DNA of 64,000 bases. Origin: Sulfurovaceae bacterium. GTDB taxonomy: Bacteria; Campylobacterota; Campylobacteria; Campylobacterales; Sulfurovaceae. Each line of letters starts with the position of its first letter. Position 1 is the first letter of the stretch. The position numbers were made by a program, and so were the translations under genes. Under the pieces are notes generated by a model that had not been told where the DNA came from, did no database searches, and was given only the letters and a program-made list of their open reading frames with translations. The DNA lies in contig JAQTLE010000002.1 of assembly GCA_028715055.1 (NCBI GenBank), positions 248,001-312,000 on the forward strand. The letters run 5' to 3'. This document shows, in pieces, positions 3,758 to 6,718 of this stretch.

Positions 3758-3985
3758 ATGGCTATAAATATAGAGTTTATAGAATCCAAAATAGATGAAA
3801 TCTTAGTTGAACTCGAAAAAGAAGCAATGGATTATATATTAAACGAAAGTTTTGATAAAAAATCTACAAATATTCAAATGAAACCGCTTGTTTCTACTAA
3901 GCAGATATTGATAAACGCAATGGAAAGTATAAAAATGGTAGAAAAGCTGGCAAAAGAAGAAGAATCAAGAAGGGCTACGAAGTAG
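3758..3985 (+). CDS. Small hypothetical protein downstream of mogA
   Basis: A 75-residue charged, mostly helical protein rich in Glu, Lys and Ile, with no recognised domain and no membrane segment. It follows mogA by four bases and no other gene overlaps it, so it is probably the operon's last gene. Its TAG stop lies within a perfect inverted repeat. Function unknown. Confidence 0.7.
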   Translation: MAINIEFIESKIDEILVELEKEAMDYILNESFDKKSTNIQMKPLVSTKQILINAMESIKMVEKLAKEEESRRATK

Positions 3986-4028: not shown

Positions 4029-4655
4029 TTATGCCAGTAACTGCGATTTTTTCTGAGCTGTCATTACAAATACAGTGAAATTTGCTTGTGGTTTTTCTAT
4101 AATATTAGCAGTTTCAAATTTTATATTTATAAATCCTGCTTTTTGGGCGACGTTAGTAAGCATTTCCCTGTCAAAACCAAAATGGTAAACACCTTCATTG
4201 TCGCCATGAAATGATCCATCTTCGCTATCCAAATCAGCAATTGCAATAAATCCATTATCATTAAGCATCACATATAGCTTATTCAAAAGAGATTGAATAT
4301 CCTCTATATGATGCATTGTCATAGAAGAAATGATCCCATCTGCTTTTATTTTTAAATCATCACTCATAATATCAGTTTTAATAATATCAGTTTTGCATGC
4401 AAATTCTGATTGTTTGGCTTTAAATTCTTCTAACATAGTAGGGGAATTATCAATGGCAGTAATTTTTGATACATAAGGAGCAATAAAATATGTAAGCAAT
4501 CCTGTCCCGGCTCCAAAATCGATTAGTTCCATGGATGAGTTAATGTCTATATTTTTTAATATAATCTCTGATATTTCTTTAGCATTATTGACACGCATAC
4601 TACTCATATCCCAATTTTTAGATTTATGAGCAAAAAGATCAATATTTTTTTCCAT
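4029..4655 (-). CDS. Class I SAM-dependent methyltransferase
   Basis: A 208-residue methyltransferase of the type 11/12 group. Motif I is LIDFGAGTGLLTYF near residue 43, followed by the acidic strand end AIDNSPTML, a TDIM region and GIISSMTMHHIED as motif IV. It lies 27 bases downstream of the TetR gene and is probably cotranscribed with it, so it is likely a regulated detoxification or small-molecule methyltransferase. The substrate is not identifiable. Confidence 0.9.
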   Translation of the reverse strand: MEKNIDLFAHKSKNWDMSSMRVNNAKEISEIILKNIDINSSMELIDFGAGTGLLTYFIAPYVSKITAIDNSPTMLEEFKAKQSEFACKTDIIKTDIMSDDLKIKADGIISSMTMHHIEDIQSLLNKLYVMLNDNGFIAIADLDSEDGSFHGDNEGVYHFGFDREMLTNVAQKAGFINIKFETANIIEKPQANFTVFVMTAQKKSQLLA

Positions 4656-4682: not shown

Positions 4683-5342
4683 TTAAAATAATGTGTTTTT
4701 TTGGTTAATTCTAATGGTTTCCCAAAAATAATCAACATGTTTTTCGAACAATGATACCATAGAAGATGTCGATTTTTTGTCTAATTTTAGCAAAGAGATT
4801 TGCATTTGATAAAAAAACAGTGGCGCAAAGAACTCATTTGCTAGAAGTAGAGGATCTGATGACGTTATCATCTCGTCTTGCATCATTGCAAATAGGTAAG
4901 ACGAGAGTTTTTTGACATTTTCTTGGTAAAAATACTCATTATATATCTCTCGTATGCGTTCATTATTGAAAATTTCTTGCATAAGCAACTTAAAAAGTGC
5001 CTCATTTTGTATATCAAAACTAATAAGTTTAAAAGTGGTGGCTATAGACAAAAGCAGAGATTTACCATGTTTATAAGAATCTGGAGCCGTAAAATTAGCA
5101 AAAAGCATAGCTATGGCCGAAGTAGTGAGCTCTTCTATTAGTGATTCTAATATCTCATCCTTGTTTTTAAAGTGATTATATAGCGCACTTTGCTTAATAC
5201 CTATAGCCCCGGCTATATCTCGAACCGTAGCAGCTCTATAGCCTTTAGCTGCGAATAATTTTAGCGAGGTAGTTAGTATCTTTTCTTTTGTTTTATCGCC
5301 TTTAGAGGGCAAAGAAGAAGTATTATGCTCTGTTTTATCCAT
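4683..5342 (-). CDS. TetR-family transcriptional repressor
   Basis: A 219-residue regulator. Residues from about 18 to 65 form the TetR DNA-binding domain (KILTTSLKLFAAKGY, then TVRDIAGAIGIKQSALYNHF). The C-terminal ligand-binding part is divergent, so the inducer is unknown. A near-consensus sigma-70 promoter with a palindromic operator in its spacer lies directly upstream, which implies autorepression. It is transcribed together with the methyltransferase. Confidence 0.93.
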   Translation of the reverse strand: MDKTEHNTSSLPSKGDKTKEKILTTSLKLFAAKGYRAATVRDIAGAIGIKQSALYNHFKNKDEILESLIEELTTSAIAMLFANFTAPDSYKHGKSLLLSIATTFKLISFDIQNEALFKLLMQEIFNNERIREIYNEYFYQENVKKLSSYLFAMMQDEMITSSDPLLLANEFFAPLFFYQMQISLLKLDKKSTSSMVSLFEKHVDYFWETIRINQKNTLF

Positions 5343-5365: not shown

Positions 5366-5394
5366 ATTATAGTGAACATTTGTTCATAAGTCAA
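5366..5394 (-). promoter_or_regulatory. TetR operon promoter with operator in the spacer
   Basis: Read on the minus strand this is TTGACT, a 17-base spacer, then TATAAT. The palindrome TGAACAAATGTTCA fills most of the spacer, so a bound repressor would block RNA polymerase. This is one of the clearest sigma-70 promoters in the window. Confidence 0.85.
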
Positions 5395-5514
5395 GAGAGA
5401 CGATAATGAAATATATGAACACTTGTTAATTTAGTAAAAATCATCAATATCAATAAATGAACATTTGTTAATTAATTTAGCATGGCTATTATTTGTTATA
5501 TTAACATATGTTCA
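5373..5514. promoter_or_regulatory. Array of four palindromic TetR operators
   Basis: Four 14-bp sites of the form T(G/T)AACAnnTGTT(C/A)A lie at 5373-5386, 5416-5429, 5458-5471 and 5501-5514. Site 1 is the perfect palindrome TGAACATTTGTTCA; the others have one half-site changed at one base. Centre spacings are 43, 42 and 43 bases, about four helical turns, so all sites face the same side of the DNA. The first and last lie in the spacers of two divergent promoters. Confidence 0.82.
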
Positions 5515-5520: not shown

Positions 5521-6068
5521 CCTCTGTATAGCCCTATATAGCGATAAGAGCATAAAAATGAAACTTGTTTGATATATTACTATGCGCTTTTATTAAACAA
5601 TATAATCAGATATGCCGGTTTATGGAATGCAAAAATAGGGCGCGTTAATATTTTTTAATAAAATATTAGTGATTTTTATTAGTCTTGATCGACTATAAGG
5701 CTTATAATTTTTAAAAGATAGAGTTTTTATGCTTAGATGCTTATCTGGTTATTAAAATTATGTCTGAATGCTTTTAGGAAAATAGCTCAGGTTAGATGCT
5801 AAATCGCAAAAAAAATTTCGAGCTGGTGCTCTAATATTTTTTTAGGCGCGATGCTTTTTCTCTGTCGTAATAAAAAACACCGATTTGATCTTATTATGAT
5901 AGAAATTTGGGATTTTGGTTTTTTATATGCATATATTATTTGGATATATTTGGATGCAATAGAAGACAATTATATTTTTAATAGAATTTATATTATGTTA
6001 ACCAATATCAATTTTAGATAAATTTAGATTGGCAATTGTTATATATACACTCACTCTCAATAATTAGA
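5521..6068 (+). other. ORF-free stretch, possible regulated RNA or decayed gene
   Basis: About 550 bases between the operator array and the upp promoter with no plausible coding frame on either strand. The word GATGCT or a near variant recurs several times between about 5730 and 5855, and a short tRNA-like string (AGCTCAG) occurs near 5785. It may be a noncoding RNA, a long leader for upp, or the eroded target gene of the TetR regulator. No class of RNA was recognised. Confidence 0.3.
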
Positions 6069-6074
6069 TATAAT
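6069..6074 (+). promoter_or_regulatory. Probable -10 box of upp
   Basis: TATAAT 21 bases upstream of the upp ATG. No good -35 box is seen, which is usual for Campylobacterota promoters. Confidence 0.5.
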
Positions 6075-6094: not shown

Positions 6095-6718
6095 ATGATC
6101 CATGAACTTTCAAATATTGTTGCAAAAAATCTAATTAATCATTTGCGTGAACAAAAAATAGATTCTTTTTATTTTCGACATATCATCAAGGAATTATCTA
6201 GATTTTTAGCATATGAAGCACTTAGCTCTTTAGAGCCGAAGACGTTAAGTATAGAAACACGAACAGGAAAAATCTCTTTTGATTTTCTTGATGAGGAAAA
6301 TCTTGTTTTTGTTGCTATTCTGCGTGCCGGATTACCAATGATAGAAGCCATGAGTGATCTTTTCCCAAAAGCATCTTTTGGATTTTTGGCAATGAAACGA
6401 GATGAAGAAACACACAAAAGCAAACTATATTATGATCGTGTTCCATTGTGTAAGAATAAAATAGTAATTGTTGTAGATCCCATGGTTGCCACTGGAGGCT
6501 CTTTGAGTGATGCTATAGATTTTATCAAGACCAAAGCACCAAAAAAAATTTTTTCTCTTAATCTGATTGGCTGTCCTCAAGGACTAGCCGTAATAGAAAA
6601 AAAACATCCGGATATCAAACTTTATATTGCTCAAATAGATAAAAAACTAGATAGCAACATGTTTATTTTACCCGGAATTGGAGATGCCGGAGATAGGGAA
6701 TATAATACACCTCAATAA
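6095..6718 (+). CDS. upp: Uracil phosphoribosyltransferase
   Basis: A 207-residue UPRT that salvages uracil to UMP using PRPP. Diagnostic parts are the early ETRTGKISFDF strand, AILRAGLPM, the PRPP-binding loop VDPMVATGGSLSDAI near residue 127, and the C-terminal uracil-binding GIGDAGDREYNT. Length is normal for the family. It appears to be a single-gene unit with its own TATAAT box; the next gene has a separate promoter. Confidence 0.96.
   Translation: MIHELSNIVAKNLINHLREQKIDSFYFRHIIKELSRFLAYEALSSLEPKTLSIETRTGKISFDFLDEENLVFVAILRAGLPMIEAMSDLFPKASFGFLAMKRDEETHKSKLYYDRVPLCKNKIVIVVDPMVATGGSLSDAIDFIKTKAPKKIFSLNLIGCPQGLAVIEKKHPDIKLYIAQIDKKLDSNMFILPGIGDAGDREYNTPQ

Follow-up and report, generated by a model that had tools for sequence, protein, structure and literature searches.

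In the 64-kb stretch of Sulfurovaceae DNA analysed here (the window), a gene for a TetR-family protein is preceded by an array of four palindromic operators set on whole helical turns, and beyond the array lies the chromosome-dimer-resolution site dif. In relatives the gene and its array are linked to dif or difH and located at the terminus, and in the present genome the protein seems to have a single main target, the array. From this anatomy, which is strongly supported, we infer that TetR binds the operators, represses its own gene and, above all, has a role at the terminus. The reading that we put forward, and to which we give an even chance, is that a dedicated TetR protein and its phased array assemble at the terminus into a nucleoprotein complex that lies next to the Xer site, with the protein repressing its own gene through operator 1. 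TetR dimers would occupy the four palindromes on one face of the helix, producing a compact nucleoprotein complex near dif or, in related families, near difH-xerH; since operator 1 overlaps the near-consensus tetR promoter, the protein would keep its own level low; and the array as a whole would act as a landmark of the terminus by the Xer site, for instance by giving the terminus its organisation, by making forks pause, or by modulating Xer/FtsK or division there.

The tetR gene (4683–5342, minus strand) encodes 219 amino acids, and its product is the predicted binder of the array. Pfam recognises TetR_N as the only domain in this protein, with 55.7 bits against a cut-off of 24, which bears out the TetR gene of the initial annotation. 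The predicted model has a mean pLDDT of 86.1, and its nearest solved folds are repressors of the EthR, MtrR and FadR type (Z up to 19.6 at about 15% identity); the protein is thus predicted to fold like common ligand-binding repressors, EthR and FadR among them, which speaks against the terminus reading. RefZ and SlmA are absent from the best 50 fold matches, an absence that excludes nothing. Downstream of tetR, a gene for a SAM-dependent methyltransferase (4029–4655, minus strand) is probably in one operon with it. Of 21 Sulfurovaceae loci, 16 have the methyltransferase cluster after tetR, and the 20 loci from other families all lack it. In these 20, all with context, no convincing same-strand gene was found 3′ of tetR: the few same-strand reading frames there mostly overlap longer opposite ones or, in locus L268, the RNase P RNA gene, those of family f4 being set aside as they lie opposite a 630-aa frame. 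Among Bacillales, the homologs of the protein (29–31% identity) have neither the array nor a B. subtilis-type dif nearby. Two features of the surroundings are recorded on their own account. One locus without array (L055, genome G012) has the C-terminal part of tetR and the methyltransferase gene tandemly repeated with a period of about 830 bp, and a 75-aa reading frame at 3758–3985 of the window, after a MoaB-like gene, is 65–73% identical in relatives and has no Pfam or NCBIfam match.

The operators are of the type TGAACANNTGTTCA and begin at 5373, 5416, 5458 and 5501, in steps of 43, 42 and 43 bp. Operators 1 (TGAACATTTGTTCA, 5373–5386), 2 (TGAACACTTGTTAA, 5416–5429), 3 (TGAACATTTGTTAA, 5458–5471) and 4 (TTAACATATGTTCA, 5501–5514) all come from the site search and from an alignment of 66 loci, namely the four-site loci with at least 58% TetR identity. 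As the initial annotation had proposed, operator 4 is one of them. These four are the only sites in the window that match at 11 or more of 12 positions, and a search of the whole genome with at most one mismatch adds a single off-array site. Among relatives, 139 loci were reduced to 90 distinct tetR-upstream regions by dropping identical ones and those with less than 120 bp of upstream sequence. Four sites are present in 75 of these regions (the fourth site of L037 being doubtful), three in 11, one in 1 and none in 3. The 247 spacings between operators are 42–43 bp in 216 cases, 31–34 bp in 24 and 21–22 bp in three, with other values in four. When each of 28 patterns is counted once, their 76 spacings cluster at whole turns of the helix, with R = 0.92 at 10.5 bp versus at most 0.45 in 2000 random sets, the 28 patterns not being independent and the test mixing two detections of some loci; spacings of 23–30 or 35–40 bp do not occur among the patterns. 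Between the operators, the sequence is hardly conserved over the 66 loci.

Operator 1 fills the 17-bp spacer of the tetR promoter (TTGACT-17-TATAAT, 5366–5394, minus strand), which matches the consensus at 11 of 12 positions, and its flanks TGTCAA and ATTATA are conserved over the 66 loci. This arrangement suggests that tetR is autorepressed through operator 1. A distinct scenario holds at the other end of the array, where the initial annotation had placed a divergent promoter that reads into the DNA beyond. Promoter flanks are conserved only at operator 1: neither −10 nor −35 hexamers are conserved at operators 2–4 over the 66 loci, and thus operator 4 has no conserved promoter around it. A promoter scan returned 18 promoter-like sites, the level of shuffled sequence (18.1 expected), and its plus-strand match closest to operator 4 reaches 9 of 12 positions, at 5465–5492. 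What is found past operator 4 is a conserved element, A...CCCT.TAT..CG...TTTG (5528–5553, plus strand), detected with a motif sampler in Sulfurovaceae. It starts 12–14 bp past the end of operator 4 in 54 of 62 loci of the family, as sampled without a shuffled control, and is most conserved at its C-C and G positions, being unlike a −10 box.

The DNA beyond the array (5521–6068) had been noted as free of reading frames, and as a possible source of a regulatory RNA, leader of upp or place of a lost target gene. It has no frame of at least 60 aa, in agreement with that description, and two overlapping ones of 56 aa. Across species, what matches is the end of the plus-strand frame, its last 16 residues, which are encoded by the dif stretch (best E 3e-4); all other matches of the two frames are weak (the longest span 48 aa with 31% identity and an E of 0.22, and 46 aa with 35% and an E of 0.31). 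The small frames were discarded as genes because only the dif-encoded end recurs. The repeated word GATGCT does occur in three exact copies in the stretch, above local expectation (P about 5e-4, the word having been picked post hoc), but it is ordinary over the whole window (36 found versus 38.9 expected) and absent from the same spacer of two sisters, so that, not being conserved, it was rejected as an element. A regulatory RNA finds little support here, since the stretch has no Rfam match at gathering scores, an RNA-folding z-score of −1.14 and little conservation, the last also evident from blastn of the spacer between array and dif. In an alignment of two sisters whose TetR is about 90% identical to that of the window, identity from operator 4 to dif is 13–58% per 60 columns, gaps counted, as compared with 68–85% over operators 1–2 and 77–87% over a block at about 5970–6011. 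The start region of upp is also conserved in these sisters, and inspection by eye adds a few positions just past operator 4 and a second block around 5630–5660. Within this part, an AT-only near-palindrome (TTAATATTTTTTAATA, 5644–5659) between array and dif may be a further element: blastn pieces cover about 5644–5668 in several loci and similar stretches are seen elsewhere by eye (TAATATTTATTAGTATT). The evidence for it is weak, and the motif sampler did not recover it, its best motif having 9.7 bits versus 8.4–8.5 in shuffled sequence.

As for upp itself (6095–6718, plus strand; TIGR01091, 219.9 bits), the gene is a neighbour that lies outside the element. A leader running from the array was rejected because upp has its own probable −10 box, a TATAAT at 6069–6074 (plus strand) about 20 bp before the start codon and in a block conserved in sisters, and because neighbours turn over, upp being near the site in 4 of 30 dif-centred loci. 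The 21 Sulfurovaceae loci compared do not share a gene on the right-hand side; the suv3 cluster is present in 8 of them. The arrangement departs from that of a TetR protein with a divergent target, as a conserved divergent gene (21 loci) and a conserved promoter at the distal operator (66 loci) are both missing. The ORF-free DNA is instead the neighbourhood of dif, because the block at 5970–6011 contains that site.

This dif, which had escaped the initial annotation, is found at 5976–6003 (plus strand) within the conserved sister block as TTTTAATAGAATTTATATTATGTTAACC, composed of TTTTAATAGAA, the centre TTTATA and TTATGTTAACC. The study of Carnoy and Roten (2009, PMC2731167) lists the dif sites of Sulfurovum NBC37-1 and Sulfurimonas denitrificans and the consensus TTT-AATAGAATTTA-ATTATGTTAA-CAATA-A. 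The site of the window corresponds to these published Sulfurovum and Sulfurimonas sites and fits the consensus, with a length of 28 bp, a conserved XerD arm and a 6-bp centre. Judged by its sequence, 5976–6003 is the chromosome-dimer-resolution site dif of the XerCD type. The 16-bp right part of dif occurs once in this genome on the forward strand and not at all on the reverse strand when one mismatch is allowed, and it is single-copy in 78 of the 91 family genomes that have a match. As a control, the dif pattern was read backwards and still found a match in 21 of 150 genomes, which means that chance accounts for some of the dif-like matches elsewhere. The genome also encodes two Xer-like proteins, both scoring below the model cut-offs (TIGR02225 XerD, 227.9 bits, cut-off 329.6; TIGR02224 XerC, 187.4 bits, cut-off 335.15).

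We have analysed the association of the array with dif in 150 Sulfurovaceae genomes, among which 91 have a dif-like match, 91 a tetR ortholog and 77 both. In 68 of these 77, dif lies 98–2027 bp (median 591) from the tetR start on the side of the array, and the relative orientation of dif and tetR is the same in 66 of the 68. The exceptions are two genomes in which dif and tetR are 20.6 kb (G016) and 32.4 kb (G087) apart and a third with the two on different long contigs (G010). Five others (G007, G025, G132, G159 and G167) do not allow a judgement because tetR and dif fall on separate contigs, in several cases at a contig end; in G061, the left arm of the dif-like match is unconvincing. Array and tetR stay together in G016 and G087 although away from dif. 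Seen from the other partner, in 30 dif-centred loci (the first listed, not a random draw) a flank of 1.5 kb includes tetR in 23, the methyltransferase gene in 16, suv3 in 11 and upp in 4. A tetR match is missing in 14 of the 91 genomes with a dif-like match, some of these dif matches being doubtful. Leaving out G033, G083 and G153, the array is absent from all 11 examined, with at most one isolated 10/12 match; nine of them have a dif-like left arm, the left arms of G094 and G162 being poor by eye. The genomes with separated or missing tetR indicate that the association is neither strict nor essential. Moreover, array and dif are separated by a distance that varies from locus to locus, which makes a precise recombination complex improbable; a variable distance would fit a landmark, a roadblock or a recruitment platform, and not a precise recombination synapse.

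The linkage extends beyond the family. Among 248 genomes of the order, 69 have an ortholog of tetR (E ≤1e-30). Of these, 48 belong to families other than Sulfurovaceae, and 25 of the 48 were examined, 20 with surroundings and five with short flanks. Beside tetR and array, 12 of the 25 loci have difH and 10 have dif or its left half; in two the contig is too short, and one, the single locus of family f3 (G037), has neither dif nor difH in the 15 kb searched. In families f18 and f4, 12 of 13 loci (8 of 9 and 4 of 4, respectively) have difH at 124–217 bp from the start of tetR, the ninth f18 contig ending 197 bp upstream of tetR. These difH sites have 0–2 mismatches to the consensus published in PMC2731167. 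Past difH, the next gene is xerH in all nine f18 and f4 loci with full context. It encodes a tyrosine recombinase of 350–389 aa, named here from its size, motif and linkage to difH since NCBIfam offers only general Xer models. In f16, a putatively Sulfurimonas-like family, dif is 507–1984 bp from tetR in six of eight loci and the left half only is present in the other two, and in f9 dif is at 379 and 403 bp in two of three loci, the third contig ending 308 bp upstream. The finding of difH and xerH in f18 and f4 and of dif in f16 and f9 means that, so far as these loci can tell from their sequences, the array stays beside the dimer-resolution site although the type of site differs between lineages. 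XerH-like matches (E ≤1e-25) are strong in f18, f4, f8, f10 and f13, absent or weak in f16 (one, at 32%), and absent from nine of ten Sulfurovaceae (f1) genomes; the search of one genome each of f9 and f15 gave no match either.

Some of these loci have features of their own. The two f16 loci with a half site (L268 and L274) keep the left half of dif intact at about 937 and 618 bp from tetR, but other sequence stands in place of the right half, as would be seen after integration of an element at dif. In this family the gene for RNase P RNA is just past the array, between it and dif or its left half, in four of five f16 loci searched (L264, L265, L266 and L274), and in the fifth (L268) it is on the other side of tetR with the array persisting. 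Within Sulfurovaceae, G034 (L056/L287) encodes a XerH-like recombinase (42% identity) near a classical dif, and its array spacing is 43/33/43.

The position of the locus on the chromosome was evaluated in 24 genomes, complete or nearly so, whose tetR is on a contig of chromosome size, seven lengths being rounded and a few genomes having two or three contigs. In all 24, tetR is located at 0.44–0.50 of the genome or contig from dnaA, which itself is near base 400 in 19 of them and elsewhere in five. In the complete genome G031, where dif is at 1.144 Mb, the GC skew of 20-kb samples is positive as far as 1.13 Mb and becomes negative from 1.15 Mb onwards. The GC skew of the 64-kb window itself is ambiguous.

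Operator-like sites outside the array were surveyed in 20 stretches from 13 genomes of relatives, picked among the matches listed. The main site is inside a predicted reading frame in 17 of the 20, although in two of these (L305 and L306) it is near the start of frames whose starts are uncertain. The three intergenic sites comprise two in what we take to be the nitrilase/pcm neighbourhood, in two genomes of one genus, and one, TGAACATATGTTCA, before a presumably DUF134-like gene. The last sequence is near DUF134-like genes in L301, L305 and L306, two of these genomes having no tetR match, and is probably the site of another regulator. A second TetR regulon was considered and rejected, given one off-array site with one mismatch in this genome and matches mostly inside reading frames in relatives. 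With a single off-array site here and off-array matches mostly in genes, the array appears to be TetR's one main target.

These observations have to be weighed against other readings of the same locus. The strongest rival is that the array is what is left of a regulator of xerH: in an ancestral order tetR-array-difH-xerH TetR would have repressed xerH, which was then lost in the Sulfurovaceae and Sulfurimonas-like families when XerC/XerD and dif took over, the autoregulatory region of tetR persisting. We consider this possible, though rather unlikely. The position of xerH on the far side of the array in nine of nine full-context loci of two families is what this history would leave behind, and it agrees with the missing XerH match in nine of ten Sulfurovaceae genomes, with the XerC/XerD-like proteins of the present one, and with the XerH-like gene that G034 keeps beside dif. 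Since xerH holds that side of the array in two other families, a lost xerH in the Sulfurovaceae lineage is conceivable, and to this extent the lost target gene of the initial annotation survives, although a decayed protein gene was not seen. However, after a loss of xerH one would not expect 75 of 90 loci to retain four phased sites when the intervening sequence is drifting, and one genome each of f8, f10 and f13 has xerH without a tetR ortholog. An unlikely explanation, and the second rival, is that TetR is a plain local repressor of the tetR-methyltransferase operon, the four sites providing tight cooperative autorepression and the closeness to dif being passive. Operator 1 within the tetR promoter, the methyltransferase gene in 16 of 21 loci of the family, the predicted fold of a ligand-binding repressor, and the cohesion of array and tetR in the two genomes where they are far from dif are all consistent with it. 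Yet the array and its linkage to dif or difH persist in the 20 loci of other families where the methyltransferase is absent and no convincing same-strand gene follows tetR, and other neighbours turn over around dif (suv3 in 11 and upp in 4 of 30 loci).

A transcription factor of the ordinary kind fits poorly in general, because there is no convincing downstream partner outside the family and no common divergent gene other than xerH in two families. A divergent promoter at operator 4 that would produce a regulatory RNA from the ORF-free DNA is, in our view, very improbable: the conserved element at a fixed distance past operator 4 and the RNase P RNA gene just past the array in four of five f16 loci would suit it, but the lack of conserved −10 and −35 hexamers at operator 4, of an Rfam match, of marked folding (z-score −1.14) and of spacer conservation argues against it, as does L268, where the array is still present with the RNase P gene on the opposite side of tetR. 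A dedicated TetR protein with a phased array at the terminus remains the reading that we favour.

Several known systems resemble this arrangement in part. The fork traps Tus/Ter and RTP are protein-site complexes at the terminus, near dif; their proteins are of an unrelated family, and the sites of the present array are palindromic and therefore non-polar, unlike fork traps. The plasmid sites cer and psi are flanked by accessory protein sites, likewise on one side of the Xer site, but at a fixed distance, whereas here the distance from tetR start to dif ranges from 98 to 2027 bp. EthR binds its operator cooperatively, and EthR-type repressors share the fold and the placing of several dimers near their own promoter; unlike in these, the present sites are separate palindromes 21–45 bp apart, start to start. 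The nucleoid occlusion factor SlmA shares the TetR-family fold and the binding of chromosomal sites, but its model (NF007015) gives the window protein 31.4 bits where the cut-off is 120. The sites of SlmA are enriched towards the origin (PMC4117426). RefZ of Bacillus (PMC6657595) is likewise a TetR-family protein acting on near-palindromic chromosomal motifs with conserved positions; these motifs are on both arms and near oriC, whereas the system of the window is one array at the terminus. Among NCBIfam models, that of RefZ (NF037937) scores highest with the window protein and with four of five relatives tested, but it reaches 54.6 bits (45.7–56.9 for the five relatives) against a cut-off of 180. 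According to PMC2731167, dif has no apparent specific genetic environment and difH is unassociated with specific elements; here, a TetR operator array is linked to both. Our literature search, PMC2731167, PMC10331603 and PMC6657595 included, yielded no published link of dif or difH to a TetR operator array.

On a more general level, these results caution against assuming a divergent transcript under TetR control wherever the divergent side of a TetR gene is free of genes. They may also point to an undescribed terminus-binding system of Campylobacterales, in which a TetR with one main target and a phased four-site array, retained by the Xer site despite the change from difH/XerH to dif/XerCD between lineages, would position, pause or license the terminus for dimer resolution and division; we hold this wider proposal tentatively, at somewhat less than an even chance. 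To our knowledge, few lineages have a known protein dedicated to the terminus, as MatP, Tus and RTP are. If the array indeed stays by the Xer site across recombinase systems, this TetR would be a candidate terminus protein for Campylobacterota, and one with which the role of such proteins could be tested easily.
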